Shown here: positions 23,701 through 48,841 of the stretch, piece by piece | Layout: every line of letters begins with the position of its first letter | Position numbering within the stretch: the stretch's first letter is position 1 | The notes under the pieces: generated by a model | The model's database searches: none | Told to the model about the DNA's origin: nothing | Seen by the model: the letters and a program-made list of their open reading frames with translations, nothing else | From: Cafeteria roenbergensis | Lineage: Eukaryota > Sar > Bigyra > Bicosoecida > Cafeteriaceae | Length of the DNA stretch: 64,000 bases | Reading direction: 5' to 3' | Assembly: GCA_008330645.1 (NCBI GenBank) | Contig: VLTN01000001.1 | Coordinates: 1,116,001 to 1,180,000, forward strand | Translations under genes and position numbers: made by a program

Positions 23701-26700
23701 CGTCGTCGCCACTGCCGCTCTCGCCGTGGTCAAGTGCGGGAGCCGACGTCGCCACGACCAGCGACGCGCGGTGCGACTGCTGCGCCGCGCCCCCCTCGGC
23801 CGCAGGCGAAGCGCCCAGCACCTCCTCGGCCCGCCGGCGCGCCTCCCTGGCGGCCCAGTCTTTGCGGCTGCGGTCCGCCTTGCTCTCGCCGTCGAAGAGA
23901 AGCCCGGCCACGCCGTCGAAGCAGGAGCCGAGGAACGGCACCACCCTCGCGGGGTCGGCAGTCTCGGCCAGCATGGAGAGCAGCTCTGCCCTGGAGAGGA
24001 AGAAGAGGCGCGGAAAGGCGAGCCGCTTCGAGTCCACGTAGCTGTGCACCCCGGCGCGCACCTCGTCCACCATGGCCTCGGCCTCGGCGAGGCGGTCGTG
24101 CACGTGCGGGATGGCGAGAACGGACGCGACGCGGGGGTCAGCGGCCGCGCGCTGGCTGACGCCGCGCCAGTTGTCGTCCACCACCTCGAACTTCGCGGCC
24201 TCCTCGGGCATCTGGCGCTGCACGTCAGGGCTGGCGAACACGCGGTGGAGCTGCACCCACGCGGTTTGGACTGACATCCAGGACGACAGCAGGCGGCGAA
24301 CGCCGCTCAGCTGCGTCACCAGAGTTGCGATCAGGGCCCTAAATGGGCCGGCGTACTTGGAGCCCCTCACGGTCTGCAGGCGAACGGCGTGGTCCTGGGT
24401 CATGCCTCGCATCCGCTCCGCGGAGTCCACCGCCAGGACGCGCACGCCAGTGGCCTTGTGCGGCAGGAGGTCCATGCTGAAGCCCTCCCAGTCCTGACGC
24501 ATGCCCTCGAGCGCGTCGAACACCGCGAACTCCCTGGTGGCCTCCTCGCTGACCGCGGTGAGCTGGTCGATCCTCTCGTCGAAGCGGAGGTCGCGCAGCT
24601 TCTGCAAGGTGGTGGTGGCGTCTGGCACGATGCGCAGGCGCACGATGGCGCTGACCTTCTTCCAGTGGCGGTCCTGCATGCCCCGGTTGCACACCACCAG
24701 AAGCAGGGGCAGGTGCCGCTTGAAGCGCTCCAGGTGCTCGACGATGCGGGCCCCGATGGTGGCGGCTTCCAGCGCGCCGTCCGCCTCAAAGTGGGCGCGC
24801 AGGGAGTGCCCCGCGCGCTGCATGCGGTCCACGGCGGCGACGATGACGCTGGCGTCCAGCTTGAACACGGGCCCCCGCTCCCAGCGCGTGCAGAGCACTT
24901 CGCTGCTCCGGGCGGTGGTCCAGAGCTTGAGCAGCGGCTGCAGCAGGGCACGGTTCTCGCCCACCTCGCGAAACACTGAGGGGGCCAGCCCGAGGACGCG
25001 CTCGTCGTGGTGCACCCGAGCCACGGCCGCGTCCGCGGCGGACAGCTCGCGCTCGCACTCTCGCAGCTGCCCCTCGATGGACTCGGCCGCGCCCCACTCG
25101 CTGCGCTCTCTGAGCGCGCTGAGCACCTGCTCGAGCGACTGCATGGACTGGGCGATGTTGTCCCGCCGCGTGCGCGCGTCGCTCTCGAGGCGCGCCCTCG
25201 TGGAGGAGAGCTGCGACGAGAAGGCCCGGCTCACGCCGGCGATCTGGTGGCGGTGCTCCGCCACGCTGTGCGCCTGCTCGAGCACGGCCCTGCCCACCGC
25301 ATGGCCGTGGCGGAACAGGAACTGGAGCAGCTCGTGGGCAGCCCGCTCCTCGGCCTGCAGCTGTGGCAGCTCCCCCGTGGACGCGTCCGCCAGCAGCCGC
25401 TCCGCCTGCACAAGCTCCGAGGGCGTGCTTGGCTGGGAGTGAAGGCGCTGGTTCAGCGTCTTGAACCGGGAGTTGATCGCCTCGAAGCGAGACTCGGTCA
25501 TGTCCTCGATGTGCCGCAGGACCGAGTGCACGAGCGACCGCGCCGTGGCCTGGAGCGTCTCTCGCATCTCCCCGGTGCGAACGAGCACGAGGTCCAGGGC
25601 AAGCTCCTCGGGGCAGTGCGCGCCCGTCTCGAGCTCCTCGCAGGCCGCTGAATACTGCGAGATGACCCGCCCGCATTCGTCCAGCGACGGCCTCGAGGCC
25701 AAGAACTCCGCCAGCCGCTCCTCCTCGGTCAGCAGGAACTCGAACGGGGCGAAGAGCTCCAGCACCACGGAGGCGTCCTGCATGGCCCTGCGAGCAATGT
25801 GCCGGGCGATGACCCGCGCGCGGCGCATGCCGGGCTCCTGCCAGGCAACGCCCCACAGGTACTTGCGCCGCCCCGCCGACGAAGGCTGAGGCCTCGCGTC
25901 CTCCTGGTCCGCGGGGGACGTCCCGCCGCCGGGCCCCGCCGCTGATGCGGCCGCCTGGCGCCGCTTCCACCCGGGCCGCATCGCCCGCCAGCGCGCGGCC
26001 TCGCTCGCCGCCGCACGCTTCTGCCTCTCAACCTCGGCCTTCTCCGCTCGCACCGCCTCGTAGCCGGGGTACGGCCGTAGCCCTGGCTCCGTGAGCGTGG
26101 CGAGCGCCCTCTGCTCCACGGAGGTGCCGCCGCCGCCGCCGCCGCCCTTGCTGCCTGGGCCGGCGGTTGCACCAAAGTCGCGCCGCACAAATGCCCCTCC
26201 AGAGTCGTCCTCGTCGTCGTGCTCTGCCGGCTCGCCCTCCTCCTGCTGGCCCATGCGGGCGACTGCGCCGCCGGCTGCGCCGCTGCGAGCGCTGGCCACG
26301 GACCTGTACGCGCCCGGGCCCGTGAAGCGGCTCTCCCACTCGCGGGGGTCCACCGCCCAGGCGGGCACCTCGGTGCCCGCGTCCGCGCCCTCCGCCACCG
26401 CGGCTGCCACCTCGGCGTCGCCGTCGAGCTGCGAGGCGGGCGACGGGAAGCCGTGCGTGGCTCCGATCAGAGCGTCGAACACGCGCACGATGCCCGCCTC
26501 GATGGCTGCCGCCGAGGGGCGGAAGCCGAACCGGCGGCGCTCGCCGGCGACGGACTCGGCTCCGAAGCTGCCCGCCCCCACCTCGCTCAGGGGCGGGAGG
26601 GACTCTTGCGGCTCCTCCTGCGCGCGGCGGGCCTGCAGCTCCAGCAGCGCGCGCGACGCCACGCTTTGGGTCTCGCCCCCTGCCCCCTCCAGGCTCCCCA

Positions 26701-29700
26701 GAGAAGCGCGGCGCGGCGGGGAGGTTTCCCAAGCGGTCGCTTCAGCCGCAGCCCGCGGCGGCGCGGGGGCACGGCCAGAGCCGAAGGGCGTGCGGCTCCC
26801 CCCAGTGGGCTGGCCGTGGCCGCCCGAGGGCCCGCGGGGCTGCCGGGCCGCGTTCTCCTCATCCCCGGCGTCTGCAGCGTACTGGAAAGCGAGGAGGGGG
26901 TTCGCGGCGGCCTCCGCGTGGCCTGCGGCGCGGGACGCGTCCTCGTCCGTCAGCGACACCACAAAGGCTGGCCGTAGCGTGGCTGCCTCTGGGCGGCCGT
27001 ACGCGCTGCCGCTGCCGAACACGGAGGCGAGTGTGCCCTGCCACTCGGCGTCGCTCTCGAGCTCCTCCGCAGAGGCAGGGTGGCCGGTGCCCTGGAGCGA
27101 CGTGGCGGTGCCCTCGGCCCCCAGCGTCTCGGTGGAAGCCGCGTGGCGCAGCGCGTCGAGCAGCGTGGGGGCGTCGCTCAGGCCGGGGTGCAGCCCGGAA
27201 GCCGCCAGGTGCGCGGAGACGAACGGGGCAGTCGGGGCGTGCAACGGCGACTTGCTCTCCGCGTCCGCGTCGGCGTCGGCGTCCGCGTCGGCGTCGGCAG
27301 CGCCGCTGCTGCCGGCGGTGGCTCCGTGCGCCGCCGCGCTCGTCTGAGCGCGGGCTGCCCCGCGCAACAGTCCGGCCCACGCCCCTGCACCCAGGACCTT
27401 GAGCGACCGGCTCACGGACTCCCGCTCGGAGTCGCCGGCGCGCAGGAGCGCCAGCCCCGTGGGCCCGCCGCGCCTGGCGGCCTCCAGGGCTGGGTCGGCA
27501 GAGAGGCAGCCGTTGGTGTCCGCAGTCAGCACCGGCGCTGCAGCGGACCGCGCTGCCTCCTCGGCGATGGCACGAGCCCAGGCGCGGCCCCCAGGCCCGT
27601 CCCAGTCAGCGTCGCGCGTCACCGGCTCGCCCTTCTCGAAGCCCCCCGCGCCGATGGACGCCTGCCCCGGGATGTGCGAGGGCACCAGCGACGGCCGCGG
27701 CAGGGTAACGAGGGCGGCGCCGCGGGGAAAGGCGGCGTCCCACACCCGTTCCGCCAGCAGGAGACCGAGCGCTCGGTCCAGGAAGGACCGCCTGAGCAGC
27801 TGCAGCGCCTCGATGTCCTCCGGCAAGACGTTGTCCTGGTCCCCGGGCGCGCCGATGAGGGGAGCGACGCCCTCGTCGCGCAGCAGCGCGTCAGCCAAGA
27901 GCCGGCGCACCCCCTCCGCCGTCGTGCGGCGCGCCGGGGCGCTCCCGGCAGCCCCGCGACGGGCGGCGCCGGCACCTCGGCCCTTGCCGGCCACGAGCGC
28001 GCCGTGGCCTTGGTCGGGACCGTGGCCGCTGCCTTGGCCCCCAGCACCCGCACCGTCGCCAGCGCCGGCGTGGCGGCTCGCGGGGCCGCCGCTCAAGGCA
28101 GCGTCTCCGCCCGCCCGCCGCGCCCTGTCCCGTCTCTGCGCCACATGGCCTCCCCCGTGCTCTTCGTCGTCGTCCTCCTCCTCTTCGTCGCGGAGGTCCT
28201 CCTCCCGCGCGATGCCAAAGATGTCCTCGTCCTCCTCGTCCTCCTCGCCAATGCCGCTCCCGAACCCTGCCGCGGCGGAGGCCACCCCGGAGGACCCGTC
28301 TGGGCCCAGCATCGACACGAGCACCGAGTTCATCACGGCCGAAGCACGCCCACCGCCCATCGGCTGGGCGGGGGTGCCTGCGACGGGCCGGGCAGCGCTC
28401 ATCCTGCGCCCGCCAGCCCCCATTCCGGGGCCGACTCCCGGGGACTGCCCGCCGTTGAACGCTGCCGCAAGCCGCGCCAGCGACCTGCGGCGCCCGCCGC
28501 CAGCAAGCTCGCCGGCGTCGGGGGCCTCTGCCCCGCCCGGGGCACCCTGCACGAGCGCCGCGGGCAGGCGCGCGGGGGCTCCGTTGTCCCCGGGCGGCCC
28601 GCCGGGCGAGCCCCCGGCGCGCCCGCCAGCGATGCCGGCCAGGCGCTTGAGCGCCGCCACTCCTCGCCTCAGGGCGGCCAAGGCCCGCTGCCTCCGCTGA
28701 ATCGCGCGCCGCTGCCTGGGAGGGAGCCGGCGGAGCCAACGAGCTGTTCCTGGGCCGCCTCCGCCGCCGTTTCCAGCCTCCGCCTCGGCCTCGGCGGCCG
28801 CGTGGTCCACATCCCCGGCGCCAGCCTCCTCGGCAGCTTCGGCGCGCTGCGCGAGCAGCGCCTCCCACTTCGCGTCGCTCATCGTCCCTCGGAACTGCGT
28901 CGCCTTGCGACTGCCCTCGCGGTAGCTCTGCTTGCGGCGCTCCAGCAGTGCTCGGGCGGCGGCCCGCTCCCGCTCCTTCCGGCGCTCTGCCCGCCTGAGG
29001 CGCTCAGCCTCCGCATCACGGCGGCGCTCCTCGGCGATGCGGCGCCTGACTCGGCGGCGAGCCGCGGCGACGAGGGCGGGGAGCCGCAGGCGCTGCCGCC
29101 GCCTGGCGAAGCGGAGCAGAAACGCGAGCAGAGCCGCGACCGACTCCTCGCAGACCTCGCGCAGCTGCAGAGACAGCAGCATGGTCGACGCAGCAAGCAG
29201 GCGCTGCGCGTCGAAGGACACCGCGCCGGCGACCTGCGACGCCGCCCCGCCCTCCAGCCCCATCTGCGCCGCCACCTCGGCCCGGACCGCGGAGAGGAAG
29301 CCCTCCGGGCCCTCCCGCATCCCCTGCGCCAGCTCCTGGAGGCGGAGGTCGCCCCAGGCCGCCGCCTCAGCGCTCACGGTGTCCTCGGCGGCGGGGCCAA
29401 CGGCCATCGAGGCCAGCTCGGCGGCGCTCGCCCCGCCCCCGCCGCTGCCCCCGCCGCTGCCCCCGCCGCCCAGCGCCGCGGCGGAGCTGCCGGCACCGGG
29501 ACCGGCCGACAGGAACTGGAGGAGCGTGTTCTCGGCCTGCGCGCTCCACCGCTCCAGCAGGCTCTGCCGCGTGGTGGCCGCGTGGCGCAGCTGGGCGCGG
29601 ACAAAGCCGGCAAGCGGCTGCGGCCGCCACCCCTGCATCGCCTCGGCGTCGGTCCTGGGGACGTCGATGAGAAGCGAGATCGCGCCCGCCGCGCGGTAGG

Positions 29701-32700
29701 CCACCCACCGGTTCTCAAGCTGGCGGGGCGCGGCGCTGAGCCGGTAGAGGCCGCGGGCGAGCCGCGCCCTGGCCCTCGCGAACCGCCGTGTCCAGTCGGC
29801 GGGCACCACTGGCCCTGCGATGCGGCCGCGCAGAGCCTCGGCGGCCCCGCCCCACTCCCACCTGCGCGCCTCTGCCGCGACGTCGGCAGGCAGGGCCGGG
29901 ATGCGGAGGCGCACCCTGTCAGAGGGAGAGCGCAGAGCGTACAGGAGGGCTGCGCGCCGCAGGGACGCCTCGTAGCCGGCGAGGGCGTGGCCGAGCTCTC
30001 GCTGCAGGACCTCGTTGGCTGTGCGGAGGCTGGCAGCGTCGCCGGCGGGGGGCCGCGGGAGCCTGGCGAGCACTCCGCGGCGCTGCTGCTGGCTGAGGGG
30101 CGCGATCTGGCCCGTCGCCACAGAGAGGGAGGAGGCCACCGGCCGGCCGACGGCGTCGAAGCCGCGCTCGTAGTGGCGGAACCGCTGCCACCCGCGGATC
30201 ACCGGGTGGCCCTCGGGCACCGTTGCTCCGGCGGCGAGCGAGGTGAGCACGTCGGAGGGGTTTGTGGCCGCCGCGACGGCCGCGCGGCCGTCCACAAGGC
30301 TGGCGGCCAGGGCCGGGCGGAGCGCCTCAGCGCTAAGACGGCGCTTCCCGCTGTCGGCCAGGCCCGTGGGCCCGTCGGCGAGGCCGTCCCCGTCCGTGTC
30401 CGCCGCCCGCAGCATGTCCAGTGCCGCTGTGGCTGCCTGAGCGCGGCTGGATGGGGCCTGGCCGTCACGCGGCAGAGCCAGCCGCTTCCCGCCCCACCGC
30501 TGCTCGATCGCGGAGAGAGCCGCGTGAACATCGCGGCGGCGGAGCGCGGTGGCAGGCAGAACCCACGGCCCCACCACCACGGCCACGACGCGGCCGCTCG
30601 CCGCGTCGAACACGGGCGAAGCCGCGCCGACGTCCTTGGGCGGGAGGCCGATGTCTGCGGCGGGCGCCCACCTCGGCTCCCAGAGGGGAGGCAGCACGGA
30701 GCCGCACCGGCGCGCGCCTCTCACGGGAAGGAAGGCGTCTTCCAGGAGCCGGAACGCGGCGGCGGGGTCAGCGGCCAGCAGGGGGCCCGCGGCGGAGGGC
30801 TGCACCGCAGGGCCGACGGCGCGAAGCAGGGGTGCGTCCATCGCGGCAGGCAGCGTTGCGGACAGCGGCACGAAGGCGGCGCCGAGCGCAAACGCCCGAC
30901 GGCGGGCGGCCAGCGAGTCGCGGATCGCCTGGGCGGCGCCCGGCTCGGCTGAGAGGATCCCGCGCGTTTGGCCGGCGTTGCCGCCGTCGCCTCCCGCCGC
31001 CGCCGCCCCTCCCCTCAGAACGGCGTCACCTGCCAGCGGGAGGTTGCGGTGAGGGCGCCGGAACCGATGGCGCTCCACGGACGAGCCGGCGTTGGCGCCT
31101 GCCTGGGGGTCCACGGCGCCTCCCCGCCCCAGCGAGAAACGCGATCCGCGACCGCCGTCAGCGGCGGCCGAGGCCGCGGGTCGCACAGACGCAGCCAGCA
31201 TGGAGGTTCGGGCGGACTTTCCCAGCCCGGCGTGCGAACCCCCAACTGCCGACACGCTCACACCAGCAGAGCCAAGGTGGCCCACAACTCGCCGGCGAGG
31301 CCCGCGAGCGGAGTGGGGCCCAGCCGAGGACGCGGCCGCCGCGCCCGCCCCCTGGCTCAAGCGCCGCGCGCCTGAGGCCGCTGCCGCCGCCCCGGGCCTG
31401 GCCGTCAAGGCGCCAGCGGTCCGACCCGAGGACGTCAGCCTCCCGCTGCGGGCCAGCGGGCCGGGGCGGGCCGCTGTCCAGGCGTCCGAGAGACCGCGGG
31501 AGTCGCCTCCGCTGGCCGGCCTGTGGGGCCTCATCGGGCGCCCCTCGCCCTCCGACGGCGCCTTGGACGCTGACGCACCGGCAGAGCTGTTTTCCGATGG
31601 GGCTCTGCCGGAGGGAGGGTCCGCCTGGTGCTCCTGGGCCGAGCCGCGGGCGGCAGAGCTGGCCCATGACACGCCCTCCGCGCCAGCGCTGACTCTGAGC
31701 AGCGCCGCTGCGGGGTTGAGGCGAGCGCCGATGCTGTCCACGAGCGTGGCGCTCGCGCCGCAGCCCCCGCTGCCCCCCACGCGGTCCGACGCGGCCTTGG
31801 TGTCGCTGGTGCCGTCGTCGCCGTCGTCTTCGTCGCTGCTCGTGTCGTCTCCGCGCCGGCCGCGGGCGCCGACGGTCGCCCCCAGCGTGTCACCGCCCGA
31901 GCCGCCCCGGCCCACTGTGTAAGGCCCCAGAGGGCCGGCGCCGAGCCCGAGGGCGTCAGCCGTCGCGGCGGGGGCGAACCCCGCGACGAACCGAGCCTCG
32001 CCCGCCACGGCCGACCCGGCGGCGGCCGCCGCCACCGCGGGGTCGACGTCGCAGTCCCTCGTGGCTGCTGCCCGCGTGACGCTGAACAGCTCCGTGAGCG
32101 GTGGGTAGGCCCTCGCCTCGCGCGCCTGGAGGCGCGGGGAGGCGTCCACAGCGCGGGCGAGCATGGCGGCGTCGCCGGCGCCCTTGTGCTCGCCCTCCTC
32201 CTGCACGGTGGACAGGTCCCACTCGGCAGCGACCGGGTCGGGAGGGACCGCCGTCCCGCGCAGCGCGCCCATGCGGAGCTGCGGCACTGCCGCCGCCGCA
32301 GTTGCAGCCGCCAGCGCCAGGGTCCGGCCCGAGGGGCCGGCCGCCGACAGGTCCGCACTGGCTCCAGCGTGCACGCGCGCGTCTTGGCCGTCGGCGGCGG
32401 CGCCGTCGCCGTAGCCTCCGTCGAGCAGCGAGGTCGAGGCGGCGCCCCCCGCCCCGGCGGCAGCCGCCGCGCCAGTCCGGCGGTCGCTGGGCTTGCGTGC
32501 GGCGGCGGACCCGCCAGCTCCAGCAGCCCGCCGACCGGGCTGCAGCCTGGCGCTGCCGCCCCCGATCCGCGACCCGGGCGGCGCCGAGCCCCTCCCTGGG
32601 AGCGCGGCCTGCGTTGCAGCCAGCGAGAAGCCGGCCTCTCCTGCTTCGGCTGCCCCAGCCCCGGTGGTTGCGGCGATGCGCCGGGCGGCGGACACCGCCT

Positions 32701-33914
32701 CGCGCCCCAACGTCACGGGGGGCTCAGACGGGACCACGGGCACGTCTGTGGCGAGCTCCCTGCGGAAGGCCATCTCGACGCGGGCGCCTCTGCTGCTCAT
32801 CGTGCCCAGGTACGGAATGTCCACGGACACCAGAGCGCCGCTTTGCATCGTCTCCCCGAGGCGGCCAACGACGACGGCAACAGCCGTTGCCGCCAGCTCG
32901 GGCGAGAGGTGCGCGACCGTGGCGACCTGCGCGGCCGAGACCTTTTCGGGCACTGTCTCGGGGACGCGGCCGGCGCTCTGGGCGCTGCTGATGCCATACA
33001 CTGCGGCGAACCGGTCGTCCAGCTCTGCGGCTCCAAGTTCCAAACAAGAGGACGCGTGGCGTGGAGTTGTGCGCCCTGGAAGGCGCCAAGCGGCGCCGCT
33101 CGCGGCGCGAGATGGCAGTTGGGAGAGCAGCAGTCTGGCTCACGGAACTGGGGCAGACGGATGCCGTGGCCAAAGCGGCGATGGAAGAAGAGCGCAAACC
33201 CTTTGATGCGCACAGCGTGGCCCTCGGCTAGCTGCGGGGACACGAGGCGGCTGGGCGGGGAGCCGGGTTGCGGGCGCCGGACGGTGGCACAGCTTCAGCG
33301 CAACTGGCGGAGGCGCGAGCGCCTGAATGCCAAGGGGAGGCCGCTGGCCAAGCTGCATGGACTGGCGCAGTCGTCTGCACGGCTGAGTTGCCATCCAGCC
33401 CGGCCCGCGACAGCAGGCGGGAGCAACGACAAGCGATGGTCTCTCGCTCATGTCGTTGCGGCCCTCCTGGCGGCAGCGCGCTCCCCAGCCCGGGCGCCAG
33501 AGGCACAGCCTCCGCGCGCGCGCGCTCGACCCATGCTCGCAGGCCCGCGCGCGTACTCCGCCACCGGGGCCCGAGCAACGGCGCGGGCCGCGGTCTGAGA
33601 GCCCACGCCGCGCTGGCGGCCAAGCCGTTGTCGCGCGAGCAACCGCAGCGCAAACTCACGCGGGACGCCACAATGAGGCCGAGCGCTTCCACCGCCTTGG
33701 CAAGCGTTTCGACCCGGAGGAGCGTGTTGGGAAGGGGGGCCGGGTTCTGAAGGCCGGGCTTTCCAGCGGGTGCGGCGTCCGAATGCGTGCGCGCGGCCTC
33801 GAGCAGCTCGTGCACTCGCGCTGCGGTGGCTGCCGAGTCCGGCCCCACGGGGAGAGCGTGTTTTGACGCATCTTTTAGCAATTCCCGGAGGGTGTACGCC
33901 GCCGGCGCTGCCAT
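8735..33914 (-). CDS. Axonemal dynein heavy chain with N-terminal tandem HU (CCDC81-type) module
   Basis: Exons 33660-33914, 33144-33231 and 8735-33024 join in phases 0 and 1 into an 8,210-residue frame. Residues ~60-215 form two HU/CCDC81-like domains. A low-complexity stretch with one EF-hand-like loop (DTDGDGLADGPT) follows, then a dynein tail (MLLSLQLREVCEESVAALLAF). The linker starts near residue 2500. P-loops are: AAA1 near 3604 (GPAGTGKTETVKD), AAA2 near 4002 (GPAASGKTTT), AAA3 near 4699 (GPAASGKST) and AAA4 near 5398 (GDPGSSRRSLTRLA, like the GxGGSGRQSLTRLA of axonemal dyneins). The stalk and microtubule-binding domain lie at ~5806-6126 (VKGMPHPPPAVRLCM), and the C-terminal domain (YGGRVTREED, GVALLAVEED) ends the protein. 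The role is ATP-driven microtubule sliding, probably an inner-arm type. Gly/Ala-rich insertions make it about twice normal length; in-frame introns or a gene boundary within residues ~220-800 remain possible. Confidence 0.93.
10499..10549. repeat. (AGCACC)n hexamer run in dynein coding sequence
   Basis: A hexanucleotide run encoding alternating Gly-Ala on the minus strand, inside a low-complexity insertion between the dynein AAA ring and its C-terminal domain. Confidence 0.9.
12219..12246. repeat. (CCT)n run encoding poly-Gly
   Basis: A trinucleotide run giving a poly-glycine loop in a low-complexity insertion of the dynein motor (minus strand). A nearby CTG run at about 12929-12945 encodes a short poly-Gln. 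Confidence 0.9.
32730..33914 (-). other. 5' exons encoding two HU / CCDC81-type domains
   Basis: Exon 1 (33660-33914, ATG at 33914) ends ...VEALGLIVASR with a GTGAGT donor. Exon 2 (33144-33231) reads LAEGHAVRIKGFALFFHRRF and ends with a GTGAGC donor. Exon 3 begins inside the Q of RLPQF|QLDDRFAAVYGIS. Joined, the order matches the two HU domains of CCDC81: a helix pair, then a KGVxIPxFGTF-like strand (here HAVRIKGFALFF), then RPxF....L...GL, then a second helix pair and strand (SVDIPYLGTMSSRGARVEMA). In animals CCDC81-type proteins are centrosomal or basal-body associated. This reading uses my memory of the family. Confidence 0.75.
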
Positions 33915-34600: not shown

Positions 34601-36747
34601 ATGCCAACCGAAGCGGAGCTGGCGCAGCGCAGCGCAGACGCAGCAACTGCGTCGGAAGAGAAAAAGGCCAAGCGCCGAGCAGCCAAGGCGAAGAAGGCCA
34701 AAAAGGCTGCCCGCATCCAACGCGACGCAGAAGCAAGCCGGGCGCCGAAGAAGCCCGGCAGAATAGACCAGATCAAGAAGCTTATGGACACTGACGAGGT
34801 CCAAGTGTGAGTCACGGTGGCGGAGCAGCTGCGCAGCCCCGTGTGCGGCGCCTTGGCGATGCCCCCCGTTTGTCGCCGCGTCGGTGAGGCCGTGGCTGCG
34901 CAGACTCCTCTCCATTTTTGCCATCTTCATGAGCGCCTACTCGCTGGCGTCGATGCTCCTGGCCTACTTTGCGCTTGAGGCGAACGTCAGCGACGCATCG
35001 AACTCGCTGAGCAACTGGGTGAGCCCCTGCGCGCGCATGCAGCGGCCGGCCCGTTCGCTGGACCGCAGCAGCACGCAGTGACTCAACGCTTGCCGGCGCC
35101 CGCCCATTGCCCGCAGCAACGTAAGCCGCTCGTGGACGTCCACGCATTCTACGCCGAGGCCCCGTTGATGGGGGTTAATCTGTGCCCTCGGTCGCACCCG
35201 GAGCTTCTGAGCGCGTTGTACTGGGGAGGAGTTGCAGCAGGTCCTTGCGCATGCCCCGCGGGCGCCTACGCCAAGGTGTACGGCAATGGGCCCTATCCCA
35301 TGGAGTCCAGCCCGCAAAAGTGCAATGGCTCACAGCTCAATGGTGGCTGCAGGAACGACCGTCCCCTCGAGTTTGACTTCCTACCCGTGTGGACGGAGCA
35401 GACAGTGATTTGCGGCAAGCGCGGCGGCGAGCCGTTGATCCAGGAGGTTTCCCCGTTCAAGTCGAGGCCGACTCCCAGTGCAACGGGCGAGTGTCCGGAC
35501 GGGTACCGGTTGTGCGGCGACCCCAGCTCGCTGAGCGAGGCCATCTGCTTCCCTGAGTCGGAGCCGCAGTGCCCGTACACCCAACTCTTGAGCGTCGCCA
35601 AGTCAGACTATAATGCTTCCGCCTTCCCCAACGCCACTCTCGTATCATCTGGCGACCAGTGGCTGGTGTGGTCTCGCAACCCCGGCAGCCTCCCCGTTGT
35701 GGACTTCACCGTCGGCTTCCGTACGCTGTGCATTGGAGAGGAAAATGCGTACACCTACGGGGAGTCGCCCGGAAACCTTGAGGGCAAGCTCGTTGTGGAT
35801 ACTCAGTGTCTGGGGGTGAGGCCCTTGGAGCGCGCGCTGCGCCGTCTTGCGCGGAGTCCATGCTGGCTGCGTTGGCAAAAGCGACAAGCCAGTTGACGCC
35901 TCGCTGCGTTGGTCTGAGCCAGCAGAGCTGCCCACGGCGCGCGAACACTGTCCCCGATCGGTTGCTGTGCTGCTCCTCCGCGCCGCAGGGACGCCCGTCC
36001 GATGATAGGTACGTTGCGCTTGTGTCGGCGCCCCAGCTCGGCGTGCTGGCCTCCAACTTCGACAATGCAGCCTACTACTGCAGCCGCGAAGGCCGGCAGA
36101 CGCCGGCGCTGAGCGACTTTGACGAGAGGTGCAATGCTGGAGACACGATTTGCTCGACAGTGACGTCGCGGAGCCGTTGCGACAAGCTCACCAGCTACAA
36201 GACCGGGGACCCGAGTGCAGGCGACCTCAGCATGCTCTACCGGCTACAGGTAGCTTGGTCCCGCGCCTGCCCTGTCCCGATTGAGGAGCTCGTGGCCAAC
36301 ATTGGCCCGCTGCTGGAGATCGTGTCTTTCACGTTCATCGTTCTCATCATCAATGGGGCGTCGAACACAATCTCGATTCTCCTCGAGGGAAACTTCATTG
36401 TCAGCAAGTGCCGCGGCGACTCGCCCTGCTGCCCCCTCGAAGGGGAGGCCGAGGCGAACCTCATCAAGTGTTGCAAGACTTTCGTTGGCCTCTTTGTCAA
36501 GCTGGCAAGGTTCGTCCCTATCGCCATCCTCGCGTTCCGAACCTATGCCGTTCGCGAATTCTGGCTAAGCGTCGCGGGTCTCAGCTGCTCAGACAGCGTG
36601 ACCAGCACGACGATGGAGCTGCTGGCTGACAAGTTCACGTTTGCCTTCGCCTCGTACACCGGCACCCTCATCGTGGACGCCGTCTCAGTCCTCATCAGTG
36701 TGTTGGGCTTTGTGAGGCGCAGGTGCTGCAAGTCCTCCGACGAGTAG
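34601..36747 (+). CDS. Cys-rich four-helix membrane protein (4 exons)
   Basis: Exons 34601-34806, 34904-35018, 35117-35815 and 35989-36747 join in phases 2, 0 and 0 (donors GTGAGT, GTGAGC, GTGAGG), giving 592 residues. The N-terminal ~65 residues are cytosolic-looking and very rich in Lys/Ala (EEKKAKRRAAKAKKAKKAAR). Helix 1 (LLSIFAIFMSAYSLASMLL) is followed by a large Cys-rich, probably extracellular region of ~330 residues (CACPAG, CPDGYRLCG, QCPYTQ; N-glycosylation sites NGS, NAS, NAT). Three more helices follow near residues 435-460 (IVSFTFIVLIING), 490-520 (FVKLARFVPIAILAF) and 560-580 (LIVDAVSVLISVLGF), then a basic tail with two Cys. No known family was recognised. An alternative acceptor for exon 4 lies about 65 nt upstream in the same frame. 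Confidence 0.83.
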
Positions 36748-36964
36748 CCAGTCTCGCTGGTCGTGCTGGTGCATTATCTGCCTTGCGTTGCGTGCACGGT
36801 GCTTGTTCCGAATCAAATTTGCCTGCGATTGCCAAGTTGCGAAGGAATCTCAAGGCAGAGTTGACCTTGCGCTCGCACTTGCAAACGGCCAGGGCACGGC
36901 GTGGTGCGGCCGCGCGCTGGCAGCGGCTGCAGTCTGCGGTGGGGGCCGTGCCTGGTTTGGAGCC

Positions 36965-39900
36965 ATGCGCGACTCTCGTCGCAGGCAGGCGTTCGGGGCT
37001 GACGTTGGCATCGTCGCCTCGGAGCTGGATGCCGCAACCGCTGACTCTCACGATGCCGACGGCCCAGCCGCGGCCAACGGGATGTCGCCGCTGCTTGCCC
37101 TGGGGCGCTGGGCCCGGGAGCAGGCGTGGCCGTTTGCCGAGCCTGCAGCGCCGGTGCAAGCGCCACCCGGGGAGGCTGCCCGTTTGGCGGCTGGCCACTT
37201 GGCGGCGCTGTGCCTGCTCTCTGAACGCCCCGCGGGCGATGAGGCGCTGGTTGCTGCTCTTGCTGTGCTCCTTGAAGCGGCGCGCTCCCGTCCCCTCGTC
37301 CAGGGGCTGGCCAGCGCGGCGAGCTTGTTGGCCGCAGGAGTGCCGCTGCCTCTCCACGCGCCCGCGCCAGCTGCCGTCCCGGCGGCGCCCTTGTCAAAGC
37401 GGAGAAGGCATACGGGCGAGCTGGCAAAGCGGGATGATCGCCAGCGCGCGTCGTGCACGTGCTGGGGACTGTTCTGCGGTGGAAAGCCGCCCGCGTCGAG
37501 GCCAGCAACGTTTGCCAGTGTTGATGCCATCGGAGCCTCGGCTGGGCGGGCAGGCGAGGCGGCTTCCCGCCGAGCGGCGGCGGCTCGTGGCGGTGTCGAG
37601 CTCGAGCCTACTCGGTGGGTGGTCAGGCTGGGCGAGGGCATGGCCGCGGGAAGGCAGATGGTTGGAGCGGCGCGGGGCCTTGCGGCTGCCGTGTCGGCAG
37701 TTGCAGCTCGCTTCCCCGCCACAGCGATGAGGGTGGCGTCGGCCGCTGGCCGTCGCCGCGCCTGGCGCCATTCATCCCCGTGGAACGAGGCTCGGGCTGC
37801 GCTGGAGGCGGCTGCGGAGTCGGAAGCCGGCCCGCACGGCGGCTCCTCACTGCTGCTCCGGGCATCCGCCCGGGCCGGCGCGCCCGTGGCGGGGTCCGAG
37901 TCACGGGCACCCGCGTCGAACAGTATAGGCCGGACGGAGCCGAGCGGTCTGTGGGGGGAGCTGCTCAGCGGGGCGGGGGCGGTCGCGCAGACCCTCTTGC
38001 AGGCGTCTTGGGGCTCGCATCCGAGCAGGGGCGCTCCGCTGTGCGTGGTGGAGCCAAGCACGATTCGGTCGGAGCTGGCCGTTCCGGCGCTGTCGGCGGC
38101 GGCGCGGTGCCTGGCCGAGGCCGCCTGGACCAGCCCCGACCCGGCCGAAGCTGCCAGCGGGAGGGGCGGGCTGCCTGAATCAGTGTCTGGGGAGTTTGGG
38201 TCGGCCACGGGATCAGGCGTGCTTTCTCCCGCGGATGCCCCTCTTTCAGGGGCAGCTGCCGTGCTCTTTGCGATCGGCTGGTCGGCCGAAGAGGCGCGCA
38301 GCGCTGCAAGCCAGTCCGCGCGCCCTGCCGCTGCGGCGACAGCAGCGGCGGTGGCATCACCGCCACCACCATCAGCAGCAGCAGCAGCACCATCAGCAGC
38401 GGGCGCGGCGGCGTCTCCGGCAGAGTCAACCGCTGCGTCAGCGGCCGGGCTGGACCCCCCCGCGCAGACGGGTGCCGGGTCCTCGGCACACCGGCCAGGC
38501 AAGCACGTCCCCCCGCAGCTCCGTCTCCAAGGCCATGGCCCCGGCAGCACCATGCCTTCAGCCGAGCTCCAGGCAGGGGGTTCTTCTTCGGACCAGCGGG
38601 CCGAACTGGGCGCGGCGGCCGCCTCAAGCGGCCGGGGGCACGGCTGGACGAGCGCCAGCGTCGGCGGCGCACGCTTCGCGTCAGAGACAAGCGTCGCGTC
38701 GGCCCGGGGGGGGCTCAGCGCCACAAGCGTCGCCTTGCGCGTCAAGGCCAGAGCGCCGCCGGCGCCGCTGCTGCTGCTCAGAGGGTCGGCGCTGTGGCCG
38801 CTGGCGGCCACCAGTCTCTCTGCCGTCAGGGGCGCAGCCGCCGCCGGGCCCCAACTGAGGTTCGTGGCACGCCCCGGGTCTGAGCTCGCCGACCTGGCCG
38901 CAGCAGTGCGCGGAGGCTTGACGGGCCCGGCGCCCGTGCTGCGGCCGTGGCTCTCCGGTCCGGCAGGGGCCGAGGCGCGTGACGCAGGCGAGGGCCACGG
39001 TCCCCGGAAGGAGGTCGCCGCCTCGCTCTTCGCGGGAGGCGCCGTTGCGGCGCGCTGGGCGGTGCCGGCTGCCCCCAACGCGGTCTTTGCAGAGGCAGCC
39101 GCCGCAGCGCCTGGGCGCGCGGGAGGGTTCGGAGGCGGCTTTGGCGCTGGCAGCTCTGCGCTAGCTCTGCCGTCCGCGGCAGCGAGGTGGCGAGCCGGGC
39201 CGTCGGTTCTCAAGGCGTCGCCGTTTGTTGCGGCCTCGTCGCTTCCGCGGCGGGGTGGGGCGGCGACCGGGCGCGGGGGCGCGGCTGGGGGCGCTCCCGT
39301 CCGCGTGTCGATGGATGGGCGGGCTGGCCGTGTGTCGTGCTTCGACGTGGTGCTGCCGACGCTGCCGCCCTGGGCGCTGGAGGCGGAGGGCATGGGTGTA
39401 TCGCTGGCGGGCGTGGCGGCGGAGCGGGCGCACGACACGGGTGCTAGGCGCCGCCCGGCCGGACGGCCGGAGCCGGGCGAGGCTGCGGCTCAGCCGCCAC
39501 CAGGGCACGCCGAGCCGACGCCGCTGCTGGTGGTTCGCGGCCGGGCGGGGCGGCCGACGCTGCTGCTGTCGGGCGAGGGCGCAGCCGCCCTGGCCGGCTC
39601 TTGCTCGAGGCAGTGCGGCGGGACGGGCGGTGGTGAGCTGGTTCTGGCGCCGCTCATAACGTCCGGTGCGCCTGGGGCGGGTGGCGGTGGTGACAGCAAT
39701 GGCGGCGGCGGCGGCAGTGGTGGCAGCGTCGGGAACGAGGGCGCGCCTGCCGACTGTGCGCGCCCCCAGGCGGCGGTTAGCGTCTGCTTCTCGAGCGTAC
39801 GCCCGGCCGCTGGCCAGCGGGGGGTGTTCCAGCTCGTGCTGCGCGGCCCCGTGCCTGACGCAGCGCTGGGCAGCGCAGAGCCAGACGGCAGCCTGAAGGA

Positions 39901-42193
39901 GGACGGCGGTGCCGGCGATGCCAGCCACGGCTCGCGGGCGGGCATGTCTCAGCCGCGCGCCGGTGTGGTGCTGGCCGCTCGGGCGGCGCGCGTGCCTCTG
40001 CTGGCCCCACCCCCCGGCGGGACAGGAGTGACGCTCAAGCCAGTGGCGGGCTCTGCTGTGCCCTCTGTCTGCGCTGCTTCAAGGGGCGCGTCTGCCAGTC
40101 AGGACGCAGCGCTCTTCGCAGTCGGATGGGCGTTGGGAGCTTGCCTCGCGAGCCGAGCCCCGCCGCGTGTGTGGATCGACCCGCGCTGCCTGAGCCTCTG
40201 GGCCGCGGAGGCAGCCGGGTCCCCGCCTGAGCCGTTCGCGTTGGCGGAAAGCGCCCCCCCCACGACTGGTGGCGGCGAGGCTCTGGCAGAGGCCGTCCGG
40301 GTATCCGTCAGGAGCGGCGGCGGTGGCTCCTCCCGCGCTGCTGTGCTGCCCGCCACGGCAGGCGCGCCCAGGACCAGCACGGCACTGGCCGCAGGGAGCA
40401 GTGAGACCAGCGAGTCGCCGAAGCAAGGCTCGGCGGACTCCAAGCAGCAGTCAGCCGGGTTGACAGGCCCCCCGGTTCGCGTCACCCCGCTGTTCGGGTG
40501 GGGCGGGGCGCTCGTTGTGGCCGCTGCCGAGGCCGAGGCCGAGCGGCTGGACCTTGAGGCTGCTGCGGAGAGCGCCTCTGCCCACGCGTCTCTGCCTGGA
40601 CTGCGGGGTGCGGGCCCGGATTCCGGGCTGTCCGCGGCATCCTTCGTCCCCGTGCCGCCGTCGCTCAGGGCCTGCCTGCTGGCAGACGCCGCCACGACGT
40701 CGGCGATCTGCGAGGCCGAGGGCGACGAGCAGGCCGCCGCTGCAGCTGCTGCGAGCACCCGGATGGCCTCCACGGCCGCGGTTGGGCTGGCGGTCCGGTC
40801 TGCGTGGGCGACTCTCAACGCCGCCGCCTGTGGGCCGCCTCCCCCCGGGTCCTTGCCCTCCCCCGCGGGCTTGGGGGCGCTGAGTTGCGCTGGCTCAGGG
40901 TGGAGAGACGCTGCCGTGGCGCAGGGGCTGTTCACTGCGCTGGGCGGACGGGAAGCGCGGCATGCTCTTGACGCCTGGGCCATTGGCCCTGCAGAGCTTG
41001 CCGACGTCGCCGCGGACGGAGCAGCCGGCTCCGGCGCCGGTGCCGGCGCTGCCGATGGCCCGGCAAGCAGGCCGCTTGACCTGGAAGCGGTGTTCCGCGT
41101 GTCCTGGGCCAAGGACTTTCCTCAGGGTGGTTCGATGCGGAACGCGCTGCTTTCCCATGTGCAGGCGATGGGCGCGCGGGACCGGAGAGCCCTGCTTCTG
41201 TTCGTGACTGGCTCAGCCAGCGTGCCGCCCCCTGGCGCGGAGGCGTTGCTGGTCGAGTGCGCTGGGCTGGCGCTGAGCGAGAGAGAGTGGCGCCGACAGT
41301 ACCGGCTACTTCCGCAGGCCCACACCTGCACCAACACGCTGGAGCTGCCTGACTACATGGGAGCAACGCGGGCGCTGGCCGCAGAGCTGGGGCTCGACCC
41401 CTCGGATGAGGGCCAGCTGGAGCGGCACGCGGCGGACGTTCTTCGGGATCGGCTTGCCACGGCCCTGGAGATGGGCGGGGAGCAGGCCTACGGTCTGGAC
41501 GACGAGCCTGAGACCGGAGGTAGCGGTGGCGAGCTCGCGCTCGGCTCTCGCGATGCAGCAGCTCCAGCGCCGAGCGCGAGCACTGAGGACACCGCGCGGC
41601 CGTTGGAGGCCGGGGCAGCGGGCGCAGCCGCCAGCCGCCTGCGGACCTTTGGGCCGACTGGGGACGGAGGCCGCGCTGTGGACGGCACGGCCGCCAGCTC
41701 TGAGGCCGCCACGGCACGCAATGGCCGGCCGAGCGGGGCTGGCCTGGTGCCCCAGCGAGCCTGGGCGTCTGCCGGCGGGGGGCCAGAGGCTGCAGGCCAG
41801 ACACCAGCCAATGCCCGTGGCGGCGGCGGGGCTGCCCTGGGCAGGGTGCACAAGCTGCAGGCGTCTTCCCAGGCGACTTCGGCGAGCGAGCAGGAGGGCA
41901 CGGCAGGCGGCGAGACCACCTCGTCGTGGTCGGTGTCAGGCGGGGACGCGCACTTGATTGGCATGGCGTCGGTCGATCAGATGCACAGAATGCGGGGCGG
42001 CTCCGCAGACCATGCGGGCTGGGCGTCGGAGGAGGCTGGCGCGCCGCGAACGGGGGCCAGGCTTGCGGCGCAAGCTCGCTGGCGGCCGCCTCGCCCTGCC
42101 TCACCCGGAATGCCGCCAGCAGGGGCTTCTCGAGTCCCATCGGCGCTCCCAGCCAAGCAGGAGAGCGACGCGCCGATGTTCGACTGGGGCTAA
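36965..42193 (+). CDS. HECT-type E3 ubiquitin ligase with C-terminal extension
   Basis: A 1,742-residue frame from ATG 36965; it stays open upstream to about 36788 without a better start. The HECT C-lobe is clear: SWAKDFPQGGSMRNALL, LLLFVTGSASVPPPGAEAL, then LPQAHTCTNTLELPDYMG with the predicted catalytic Cys at residue ~1455 (codon 41327-41329), and a closing LATALEMGGEQAYGLDD. HECT ligases take ubiquitin onto this Cys and pass it to substrate. The N-lobe is diverged but visible near residue 1050 (FAVGWALGACLASRAPPRVWI). The N-terminal ~900 residues are Ala/Gly/Ser-rich with no domain recognised, so substrate choice is unknown. About 230 residues follow the HECT fold, which is unusual because the fold normally ends the protein. 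Short unspliced introns cannot be excluded. Confidence 0.85.
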   Translation: MRDSRRRQAFGADVGIVASELDAATADSHDADGPAAANGMSPLLALGRWAREQAWPFAEPAAPVQAPPGEAARLAAGHLAALCLLSERPAGDEALVAALAVLLEAARSRPLVQGLASAASLLAAGVPLPLHAPAPAAVPAAPLSKRRRHTGELAKRDDRQRASCTCWGLFCGGKPPASRPATFASVDAIGASAGRAGEAASRRAAAARGGVELEPTRWVVRLGEGMAAGRQMVGAARGLAAAVSAVAARFPATAMRVASAAGRRRAWRHSSPWNEARAALEAAAESEAGPHGGSSLLLRASARAGAPVAGSESRAPASNSIGRTEPSGLWGELLSGAGAVAQTLLQASWGSHPSRGAPLCVVEPSTIRSELAVPALSAAARCLAEAAWTSPDPAEAASGRGGLPESVSGEFGSATGSGVLSPADAPLSGAAAVLFAIGWSAEEARSAASQSARPAAAATAAAVASPPPPSAAAAAPSAAGAAASPAESTAASAAGLDPPAQTGAGSSAHRPGKHVPPQLRLQGHGPGSTMPSAELQAGGSSSDQRAELGAAAASSGRGHGWTSASVGGARFASETSVASARGGLSATSVALRVKARAPPAPLLLLRGSALWPLAATSLSAVRGAAAAGPQLRFVARPGSELADLAAAVRGGLTGPAPVLRPWLSGPAGAEARDAGEGHGPRKEVAASLFAGGAVAARWAVPAAPNAVFAEAAAAAPGRAGGFGGGFGAGSSALALPSAAARWRAGPSVLKASPFVAASSLPRRGGAATGRGGAAGGAPVRVSMDGRAGRVSCFDVVLPTLPPWALEAEGMGVSLAGVAAERAHDTGARRRPAGRPEPGEAAAQPPPGHAEPTPLLVVRGRAGRPTLLLSGEGAAALAGSCSRQCGGTGGGELVLAPLITSGAPGAGGGGDSNGGGGGSGGSVGNEGAPADCARPQAAVSVCFSSVRPAAGQRGVFQLVLRGPVPDAALGSAEPDGSLKEDGGAGDASHGSRAGMSQPRAGVVLAARAARVPLLAPPPGGTGVTLKPVAGSAVPSVCAASRGASASQDAALFAVGWALGACLASRAPPRVWIDPRCLSLWAAEAAGSPPEPFALAESAPPTTGGGEALAEAVRVSVRSGGGGSSRAAVLPATAGAPRTSTALAAGSSETSESPKQGSADSKQQSAGLTGPPVRVTPLFGWGGALVVAAAEAEAERLDLEAAAESASAHASLPGLRGAGPDSGLSAASFVPVPPSLRACLLADAATTSAICEAEGDEQAAAAAAASTRMASTAAVGLAVRSAWATLNAAACGPPPPGSLPSPAGLGALSCAGSGWRDAAVAQGLFTALGGREARHALDAWAIGPAELADVAADGAAGSGAGAGAADGPASRPLDLEAVFRVSWAKDFPQGGSMRNALLSHVQAMGARDRRALLLFVTGSASVPPPGAEALLVECAGLALSEREWRRQYRLLPQAHTCTNTLELPDYMGATRALAAELGLDPSDEGQLERHAADVLRDRLATALEMGGEQAYGLDDEPETGGSGGELALGSRDAAAPAPSASTEDTARPLEAGAAGAAASRLRTFGPTGDGGRAVDGTAASSEAATARNGRPSGAGLVPQRAWASAGGGPEAAGQTPANARGGGGAALGRVHKLQASSQATSASEQEGTAGGETTSSWSVSGGDAHLIGMASVDQMHRMRGGSADHAGWASEEAGAPRTGARLAAQARWRPPRPASPGMPPAGASRVPSALPAKQESDAPMFDWG

Positions 42194-42412: not shown

Positions 42413-45400
42413 TCACGCAATGTAGAGGCTCGCAGCGAAGACGATGTCGCGCTTGATGGCAGCTGACGCGGCCTCCGCCTTTTTGAACAGCTGGGGATCG
42501 CCGATGATGCGAGCAGCGGCGCGCACCTCCCTGCACGTGTTGTCAAGCCTCGTAATGGTGCGGACAATGGAGCCCTCTTGCACCCGGGGCGCTAGCGGCG
42601 TGATGGCCGCAAAGGGCGTCCCGCGCGCCCACTCCAGCACCACCTGCAGCAGGCCAAAGTTGAGGGTTTGGTCGACAAACGTCACGGCGTCTGCGGGCAA
42701 GCCGCAGCTCTGCTGCGCGTGCCCCACGGCGAGCGCAATCTCCTGGGCGCGGGCGCACGCTTTCTCCAGGCTGGGCGAGAGGGTGGCCGAGTCCAGCGCC
42801 TCCCCGGCCTTTTCCTGGCAGATGAACGCAGAGAGCAGCGCTGCCACCTCCTCCGGCTCGAGCGGCGCCATGACGCCCTCAAAAATCAGCTCCGTGAGCA
42901 CCAGCGCGTGGGCGGACTGCACCTCGCAGGCGACGCGGCCCTTGAGCTCCACGACGAGAGACGAGAGGTCCGCGTCTGGCTCTGCCGGTTCGCCGTCCTC
43001 AAGCGCAGGCGAGCCGGCGGCTGCCTCGGTTGCGAGGTCAGCGCCGTCGCTGGCCAGCACAGGCCCGTCTACCTTGCGCACGTAGGCGAGGCGCTGCAGG
43101 ACGCGGCTCATCGATCGCAGCTCGGGGAAGAGGCGCAAGCTCTCGTCGCTAACGCGGCGGCGGAGGAGGCGAAGCTGCCGGAGGAGCCGAGCGCGGCGAG
43201 CGACGAGTGACCATGCCCTCGAGAAGCTGGCGCTTGAGGCGGCGCCGCGAAGTTCCTGCACCGCCTGCCAGCGCGCCACGGCCGCCCCTGCTGCCTGGAA
43301 CAGGTCGACGTTTGCAGCATCGCTGAACTCCGCCGTTGGGTCGAGGTCGGGCAGAGCCGCGGCCACTCCCGGCTCGTAAGACACCGCTGCCGCGTCGCCC
43401 GGCGGCGGTGCTGTCGCCCCTTCTGCCGCGACCCCAGCTGCATCTTCGGCGGGGGCGAGAACGTCGAGGAACTGCGAGACCGCTGCAGCGAGCGCGTCAC
43501 GAGGAGATGCTTCGGCGTCCCCGCCGCCTCGCCCGCCTCTGCCGCCACGCTTCCGGCCTCGCTTGGAAGAGGCCCCGCCCATGCCCAGGAGCCCTCCGAC
43601 ACCTCCTCCCCCGCTCCCCATCAAAGAGTCGGCAAGCCCGCCCCCGCCCGAGGGTGCCCCCGACGAGAGTCCTTCAGCCCCCGCCGCCGCGGCGGCCCCT
43701 GTGTCCCCGCCCTCGGCAAAGAAGTCCTCGGGCTTGACGCGGCGGACCACCTTTCCGAAGAGGCGAAGGACTGCGCTGTCAGGCACGCGGAGCACAGCAA
43801 CCCAGCGACGGGCAACCTCGCCCACCCAGCCGACGGGCACCTTGCCCAACTCCGCACCTGTGCCCGCGCCAGCCGCAGCAGGTGCAGGCGCCACCCCCGA
43901 TGCGCTTGGGCCGGAATGGCCGCCGCTGCCGCCGCCGCCGCCACCACCGCCGAACCCGCCCTTGCCGCCCGAGCCCAGCAGGCCGCCGCCGCCGCCGAAC
44001 CCGCCCTTGCCGCCCGAGCCCAGCAGGCCGCCGCCGCCGCCGAACCCGCCCTTGCCGCCCGAGCCCAGCAGGCCGCCGCCGCCGCCGAACCCGCCCTTGC
44101 CGCCCGAGCCCAGCAGGCCGCCGCCGCCGCCGAACCCGCCCTTGCCGCCACCTGAGGCGGGCTTCCGCTTTGCAGCAGCGGGCTCCGGAGCTGTTGGTGC
44201 CACGGCTGCAACGGGTGTGCCCGGCGCGGCACTCGATGCGCTTGCCTGGGAGTCTGACGCCTCTCCCTCCCACCCGCGAGGCGCCACGACGAGCACGTTG
44301 ACGCCCCAGGAGGCGCCTTCGGCGGTGTCTAGGGAGAGCACGACGGCTGGAAGCACTCGCGTCCTGTCGGCTGGGTCGCCGGGCAGACGTGCGGTGACTG
44401 TCGCCACGCGCCCGGGGGCCAGCGCCTGGTGCCGCAGCGCCGCGTCGCCGAGGAGGATGTCGACTACCTTGCGGTCCGCAGCTGCCGCTGCCGTGACGGC
44501 ATCGTAGAGAGCCGTTGCCAACGAGGCGCTGTGCCGGTCCTCGCGAAGCAAGGCCTCCAGCGTCCGCAGGCCGGCGACCCCTCGGCCAATGAGGGCTGGC
44601 AAGTCGCCCCCGGCGATTGCTCGCTGAGCCGCGAACTCCGAGTAACTCTGGCGCATCATGTCGGCCACGCTCATGTCCTCCACGCGCAGCAGCGAGAGCA
44701 GCATCGGGTAGGTCAGGCGGAACTGTGACCGGAGCGTCGCGGGGGTTCCCTTGAGCATCACTCGGAGGTCCTCCAGCGGCGGCGGCTCGTCGCCGAAGCA
44801 GGCGAGCAGCACGGTTCCCACGCTGTCCAACCCGCGGCGGCCGGCTCGGCCTGCCATCTGGGTGTACTCGCCGGGAAGCAAGTAGCGCATTGAGCGGCCG
44901 TCGTGCTTACGGACGGAGCCGAAGACGACAGTGCGGGCCGGCATGTTGACGCCCATGGCAAAGGTCTCCGTTGCAAAGAGCACACGGACGAGGCCCCGGG
45001 CGAAGAGGAGCTCTACCACCTCCTTGAGGATGGGGAGCAGGCCGCCGTGGTGCACCGCCACTCCCGCGCTGAGCAGGTCGCGCAGCCAGAGCAGCTGCCC
45101 GAGGCGCTTGTCCGAGCCGTGGAGGCGGGAGGCGGCCGCGTCGACGAAGCCGCGCACCTGAGCCTGCTCGGCGTGGTTGAGGAGGCCTGCGCCGGAGAGC
45201 ATGCTGGCCGCCTCGGCGCACTGCTGCTTGCTGAACAGGAACACCACCGCCGGCGTGAGCTCGTGCTTGGTGAGGTGCTGGACGACGCCCATCCACTGCT
45301 CCCGGCTTCCGCGGGCCCACGAGCGGCCGCCGCGAACGCCGTGCCCGCCAGCTCGCCCTGCGCCAGCGGCCCGGCCGGGTCCGCGCATCGCGGACGAGCG

Positions 45401-48163: not shown

Positions 48164-48841
48164 GGCACTGAGAGCGAGGGGGTAGGGCTTTCACCCAGGA
48201 AAGCACCCTGTAGGCCTCAGGTCTGGTCAGAGGGTGGCTCCGCGTTCGCGGGCGATGAATGCGGGCGCAGGACTGGAGGGGCAGTCGGCTCTGCCTGCTC
48301 GGGCTTTCGGATTTGTGGTGGCCGCCGCAAACGCCGCGCTGCAGTAGCTTGGCTGCCCCCCACAACTTTGAATCTCCACACAAGGGCAGCGCCTTTGGCC
48401 GCCGGTTTCCCTTGGCGGGACGGGGCCAACGCGCTGGAGCCTCGCTGCGGCCGTGCTCGCTCCGCCAGTAGCCCAGAACGCAGGACGGACTGTTCCTCTG
48501 GCACCAGCGGGACGCAGCGTGCGTTGTGTTTTGGCTGGTTGTCGCTGCGAACTCGGTTCTTCTTCTCCTTCTCGGGTGTGTGGCCTTGTCCGGCAGCGTG
48601 GGTGCGAAACGGCGCGGTGCGAGCTGCCAGAACTGCAGCAAAATTGGGCTGGAGAAACACGGGAGCCCCGAGCCATGGGTTGCCGGGTTGCAAAACAGAG
48701 GGAGCGTGAGGGCGCCGCGGAGCGAGAGGGCCGGAGAAGAACACACCCACACACCCACGCGCGCCAGCGGGTGCCTGCACGCGAGTGGTTAGCAATCCAC
48801 AGAGGGCCGCCTCGCGATTCCAGGCAGCACAGGGTGGGAGG
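48164..48841. other. Intergenic gap upstream of Ski2 gene
   Basis: Lies between the Ski2 start and the bL27m stop, both on the minus strand. Open frames on both strands lack start codons or family resemblance. Nothing was recognised. Confidence 0.5.

Follow-up and report, generated by a model that had tools for sequence, protein, structure and literature searches.

A probable fusion of CCDC81-type HU domains with an axonemal dynein heavy chain in Cafeteria roenbergensis

The window, i.e. the complete stretch of 64,000 nucleotides of Cafeteria roenbergensis DNA that was analysed, stems from a high-GC flagellated protist (GC 0.723) and probably harbours one minus-strand gene in which a pair of HU domains of the CCDC81 family precedes an axonemal dynein heavy chain. 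A true gene fusion, presumably giving rise to a single transcript, is assigned a probability of about 0.8. The product of this gene would be a single-headed inner-arm chain of the DNAH7/3/12 type with HU domains 1 and 2 at its N-terminus, followed by a long flexible linker. The gene is composed of the following features:

33660 to 33914, minus strand: exon 1, with the start codon and the opening portion of HU domain 1 (85 codons, phase 0; donor CGC/GTGAGT)
32987 to 33719, minus strand: weak match to HU-CCDC81_euk_1, spliced across both introns (residues 66-127 of the joined protein; 18.8 bits, E 0.0017)
33144 to 33231, minus strand: exon 2 (88 bases), with the middle of HU domain 1 (acceptor CCGCAG, donor GTGAGC)
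8735 to 33024, minus strand: exon 3, with the end of HU domain 1, HU domain 2, the linker, and the dynein tail and motor
32744 to 32947, minus strand: match to HU-CCDC81_euk_2 (residues 65-132 of the ORF; 27.7 bits, E 2.7e-6)
30920 to 32692, minus strand: linker of low complexity, about 590 residues long and delimited at its end by composition only
31103 to 31444, minus strand: part of the linker (about 340 bases) where coding is indistinguishable from noncoding in a synonymous-codon test
25760 to 30919, minus strand: presumed dynein tail, with ordered-looking segments between low-complexity insertions, delimited by composition only
23414 to 24943, minus strand: DHC_N2 (E 1e-81)
21341 to 22672, minus strand: AAA1, including the Walker A motif GPAGTGKTE and FDEFNR (matched by AAA_6 in two segments, with E values of 6e-93 and 3e-13)
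14870 to 15910, minus strand: microtubule-binding stalk (MT; E 6e-39)
13766 to 14458, minus strand: AAA_9 region (E 3e-52)
9521 to 9946, minus strand: Dynein_C, the best among three segments matched in the C-terminal domain (E 2e-25)

The minus strand was open over 24.4 kb (33139-8735), corresponding to an ORF of 8,134 residues with its stop at 8735. Joining of the three exons yielded a product of 8,210 residues, in which the phase was kept across two GT-AG introns (GTGAG donors and CCGCAG acceptors in both cases) and no stop occurred until 8735. The predicted start codon, an ATG at 33914, was located in a strong context, GCCGCCGATGG. Both the in-phase joining of two small exons (33914-33660 and 33231-33144) to the dynein exon (from 33024) and the continuation of the HU exons into the dynein without a stop (open to 8735), as put forward in the sequence-only reading, were borne out. 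The synonymous-codon signal of exon 1 was not significant (255 bases, p 0.19).

The dynein families of Pfam that were matched comprised DHC_N2, AAA_6, AAA_7, AAA_8, the stalk (MT), AAA_9, Dynein_heavy, the lid domains, and Dynein_C. All hallmarks of an axonemal dynein heavy chain, namely DHC_N2, the P-loop of AAA1, further AAA regions, the stalk, and the C-terminal domain, were retrieved in order, confirming the axonemal dynein motor that had been read from the 24-kb exon. That these domains, from DHC_N2 to Dynein_C, and the P-loop of AAA1 all lie in one frame open over 24 kb argues against a pseudogene. For the region from AAA1 to the end, the highest scores among the best 60 of 91 matches were those of Chlamydomonas DHC2 (770.8 bits), DNAH7 (759.7 bits), DNAH12 (738.7 bits), and DNAH3 (726.8 bits), followed by lower scores for DNAH1 (672.7 bits), DNAH2 (576.1 bits), and DNAH6 (565.7 bits). 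For the DHC_N2 region, the scores were 276.4 for an unnamed chain of 8glv, 268.3 for DNAH7, 261.4 for DNAH3, 255.4 for DNAH1, 250.6 for DHC2, and 231.1 for DNAH12. Judged by score alone, the motor is nearest to the single-headed inner-arm chains (DNAH7/3/12 and Chlamydomonas DHC2), and not to outer-arm, I1, or cytoplasmic chains. Indeed, it resembles DNAH7, DNAH3, DNAH12, DNAH1, and DHC2 in that these chains gave the best matches from AAA1 to the end (best 60 of 91 matches). In contrast with DNAH7/DHC2-type chains, which have about 4,000-4,300 residues (best 60 of 91 matches), the product encoded here has 8,210 residues, and it differs from them in its large low-complexity insertions and its N-terminal HU pair; the low-complexity insertions account for a length of about twice the usual one.

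No Pfam family was found in the tail stretch 30640-25901, and the alignment with DNAH7 started at about ORF residue 2460, corresponding to DNAH7 residue 491. Comparison of the tail with solved structures covered 30862-28640 and yielded no dynein among the best 60 of 363 matches, the best 60 of 109 matches, and two full sets of matches; the best 60 of 363 were dominated by Gly-Ser linkers of antibodies. A structure model of 30262-28910 had a mean pLDDT of 44.2 and was uninformative.

Concerning the N-terminus, the Pfam cut-off is 26.1 bits for HU-CCDC81_euk_1 as well as for HU-CCDC81_euk_2. The latter model scored above this value with the contiguous exon-3 DNA alone (119 residues; 27.7 bits) and with exon 2 added (27.1 bits), and below it in longer queries (26.0 and 21.5 bits). 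The match to HU-CCDC81_euk_1 was positioned directly before that to HU-CCDC81_euk_2; it was absent with exon 1 alone, scored 12.8 bits (E 0.12) with exons 1 and 2, and reached 18.8 bits with all three exons, without exceeding the Pfam cut-off in any of these three queries. This stepwise increase upon joining of the exons supports their splicing. None of nine shuffles of the 235 residues of the HU pair matched any HU family at E ≤ 1. Of the two consecutive HU/CCDC81-like domains that had been proposed from the letters of the DNA, the second one stood (27.7 bits), passing the profile comparison in short queries, whereas the first one was present but weak (18.8 versus 26.1 bits) and failed it. 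A bacterial DNA-binding HU protein was considered as a candidate and rejected, Bac_DNA_binding giving an E value of only 0.034 and the CCDC81 models scoring better.

The relationship with CCDC81 proteins was further examined by means of a stand-alone CCDC81 protein encoded at locus L015, which belongs to a pond metagenome-assembled genome (MAG). In a single two-sequence BLASTP comparison, the HU pair was 24% identical to this protein over 110 residues (E 6e-5); a tblastn search with the HU pair over 16 loci missed its gene. Searched alone against the PDB, the 235-residue HU pair did not retrieve any CCDC81 chain, the sole chain at E ≤ 10 being a bacterial HU protein (E 0.52). A two-sequence profile of HU domain 2 and the L015 protein matched the solved CCDC81 proteins of the sea urchin sperm doublet (E 3.8e-11) and of Tetrahymena (CCDC81B; E 1.7e-4) and, more weakly, a bacterial HU protein (E 0.039) and kinetoplastid CCDC81 (E 0.084). 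Part of the strength of this profile came from the L015 protein, which on its own matches sea urchin CCDC81 and Tetrahymena CCDC81B. A structure model of HU domain 2, built from the same two sequences, displayed helices followed by three strands, at low confidence (mean pLDDT 53.8). With this model, Foldseek ranked doublet-microtubule proteins of Tetrahymena, sea urchin, and Trypanosoma brucei first and bacterial HU proteins next, its top two chains being the sea urchin CCDC81 and Tetrahymena CCDC81B found with the profile; none of the 64 matches had an E value below 0.001, and the TM-score at rank 1 was low (0.37 by query length). The N-terminus shares with the CCDC81 family (sea urchin CCDC81, Tetrahymena CCDC81B and IJ34, and kinetoplastid CCDC81) the order of HU domains 1 and 2, the homology of HU domain 2, and, in the low-confidence model, an HU-like fold. 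Unlike the family members compared, which stand alone, the protein of the window runs on into a dynein. The label CCDC81-type was appropriate, as the closest relatives of solved structure belong to the CCDC81 proteins found in ciliary doublets; the designation as a basal-body type domain turned out to be too narrow, as CCDC81 proteins occur in axonemal doublets (PMC10105768, PMC11961760).

The most likely role of the HU pair would be protein docking. The pair would attach to a structural component of the ciliary doublet, much like stand-alone CCDC81 proteins at the inner junction, and hold the dynein tail at a set place in the axoneme, while the motor would work on the neighbouring doublet. 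Given the fusion, such docking of the dynein tail, for which both function and partner are deduced by analogy, is slightly favoured; fusion and docking role taken together make up a tentative proposal, with the odds somewhat against it. As inner dynein arms sit outside the doublet and CCDC81 proteins lie in its lumen, the analogy is not direct and the difficulty is a serious one; the linker, with its roughly 590 residues, might bridge the distance from the lumen to the outside. What was counted in favour of docking is that the CCDC81 homologue IJ34 is described to stabilise CFAP52 at the inner junction of Tetrahymena (PMC10105768). Similarly, CCDC81b has been proposed as an inner-junction protein (PMC11961760). 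Alternatively, the fusion is real and the HU pair is involved in cytoplasmic assembly or basal-body delivery, as a cargo or loading domain, instead of axonemal docking; this is considered unlikely, the solved CCDC81 relatives being chains of doublet-microtubule structures. In favour of an assembly or delivery role, Burroughs, Kaur, Zhang and Aravind reportedly suggested in 2017 (Cell Cycle) a possible cargo-binding role for the HU proteins of the CCDC81 type, 'in conjunction with Dynein-VII'. In addition, an interaction of HOOK1 with CCDC81 is listed in a table (PMC8471410), which points in the same direction. As an elaboration of the docking role, the gene might represent a kind of inner-arm dynein not described before, with an inner-junction docking protein built into it. 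The HU pair would then bind the CFAP52/inner-junction lattice of the doublet by way of the linker, so that anchor and motor, which elsewhere are separate proteins, would reside in one chain; this is a speculative idea of low probability.

Whether the HU pair and the dynein belong to one gene depends on the linker, in which no Pfam family was found (32689-30641). Over 2,040 linker bases (32692-30650), the dynein frame contained no stops, versus four to seven in each of the other five frames, and no stop arose in 18 of 2,000 order-1 simulations. Scored against local simulations, synonymous codon usage over the whole linker gave a z value of 5.2 in frame, whereas the two shifted frames had values of -1.1 and -3.0. 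Nine of 11 half-overlapping windows of 450 bases had p values below 0.05; the other two (p 0.067 and 0.112) covered residues 499-723. A finer codon test gave p values of 0.76 and 0.08 for the two parts of 31444-31103 and of 0.03-0.05 for the neighbouring parts. The control of this test was not clean: when upstream or intron DNA was examined in the same way, 4 of 21 frame tests had p values below 0.05, perhaps reflecting other genes in the upstream DNA. Among three 600-base windows situated wholly in the linker, GC at the third codon position was highest in two (0.88 and 0.87) and, at 0.80, lower than that at the first position (0.82) in the other; the order GC3 > GC1 > GC2 applied to just one of the three, so that the pattern expected of coding DNA was not cleanly seen. 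GC did not drop in the linker, its lowest 150-base window having a value of 0.71 versus a median of 0.64 upstream of the gene.

A putative in-frame intron of 159 bases (31261-31103, minus strand; GTGAGC...CCCCCAG, both ends in phase 0) was noticed where the coding signal fades. It would suit one spliced transcript, but may also be due to chance.

The linker was devoid of the words AATAAA, ATTAAA, TGTAA, and TATA; the 3' flank of the dynein lacked poly(A) words as well, so that their absence from the linker does not discriminate between one gene and two. The sequence-only reading had itself raised the alternative of two adjacent genes meeting in the low-complexity stretch. In that case, a CCDC81-like gene would terminate within the linker, and a second gene on the same strand, encoding the dynein, would start near the in-frame ATG at 30841 (or 31201), their frames merging by chance. 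Consistent with this are the approximately 340 bases (31444-31103) without coding signal, the usable context of the downstream in-frame ATG codons, and the occurrence of CCDC81 elsewhere as a stand-alone protein. Against it, a match of frames (about 1 in 3) would have to coincide with an open gap, and the boundary, if the codon test is right, would be confined to at most about 340 bases without a drop in GC. Moreover, the frame of HU domain 2 is free of stops for 24 kb, so that a separate HU gene could end only by splicing into another frame. Two genes are quite improbable, the linker being mostly coding-like in the dynein frame, although the approximately 340 bases cannot be separated from noncoding DNA. 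An assembly or contamination artefact uniting two loci is highly improbable in view of the GC of 0.77 in each kb across 29 to 33 kb, the same-frame codon bias on both sides, and the one open frame shared by HU domain 2 and the dynein.

The preferred reading, a single HU-dynein gene, bears on the positioning of inner arms. What directs each single-headed inner-arm dynein to its own position in the 96-nm axonemal repeat is, to our knowledge, an open question. The fusion would point to a likely partner, in that the structures bound by CCDC81 HU domains may be where dyneins of this class dock, also in species in which the HU protein and the dynein are separate. The weight of this is lessened, as a link between CCDC81 HU domains and dynein may date from 2017. 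Indeed, the 'Dynein-VII' link reportedly made by Burroughs et al. possibly concerns the same fusion; if so, the gene adds one more member to an architecture already known. No HU-domain dynein heavy chain was found in the literature searched, a body of texts that misses most subscription papers, and the earlier statement that no dynein heavy chain is known to carry an HU module at its N-terminus may not hold. A related arrangement is the third outer-arm dynein heavy chain, described as having a replacement N-terminus with kelch and immunoglobulin folds that docks the dynein (PMC12338079). The predicted protein would resemble it in that a docking region of a non-standard kind forms the N-terminus of a dynein motor, and differs from it in having HU domains on an inner-arm chain instead of a kelch propeller and immunoglobulin folds (PMC12338079).

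A search for relatives with AAA1 over genome contigs retrieved ten loci, all from MAGs labelled as bacterial. Among them, L001, L002, L004, and L006-L009 (rumen MAGs) and L003 and L005 (pond MAG) carried dynein heavy-chain genes in records labelled Elusimicrobia, Bacillota, Bacilli, Clostridia, and Verrucomicrobiaceae. We infer that these contigs are eukaryotic and were binned with bacteria, those of the rumen belonging to ciliates. The seven genomes searched represented seven of the ten loci, L005, L008, and L009 sharing their accession prefixes with L003, L004, and L001, respectively. HU-CCDC81_euk_2 was found in one of the seven (above the cut-off in that one) and HU-CCDC81_euk_1 in three (above the cut-off in one), both matches above the cut-off belonging to one stand-alone CCDC81 protein. 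A second HU-dynein fusion was found neither in viral contigs nor in the seven genomes, which says little, as the collections searched were viral and prokaryotic. Similarly, scanning of viral contigs with AAA1 and with HU domain 2 gave no relatives, and tblastn of the tail and the HU pair over 16 loci gave nothing better than E 3. The stand-alone CCDC81 gene, at 9536-10567 of L015, encodes both HU domains (58.7 and 47.3 bits) and is adjoined, by eye, by a reading frame for a papain-like protease. It is located in the pond MAG of L003 on a contig of 31.8 kb, separate from two dynein contigs (58.5 and 40.3 kb). In its protein, HU domains 1 and 2 are followed by a charged region, without a dynein in that frame; by eye, the region after HU domain 2 has no counterpart between HU domain 2 and the dynein of the window.

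Elsewhere in the window, a reading frame for a HECT-domain protein was present at 36716-42190 on the plus strand. Within it, ARAGORN predicted a tRNA-Ser (GCT) of 102 bases (39523-39624, plus strand), which is probably spurious, as Rfam gave no match at gathering score over the window. In addition, a DEAD-box helicase with a DSHCT domain (42416-48190, minus strand), named Mtr4/Ski2-like by us, and a frame of 1,705 residues for an EF-hand protein (57955-63069, minus strand) were found.
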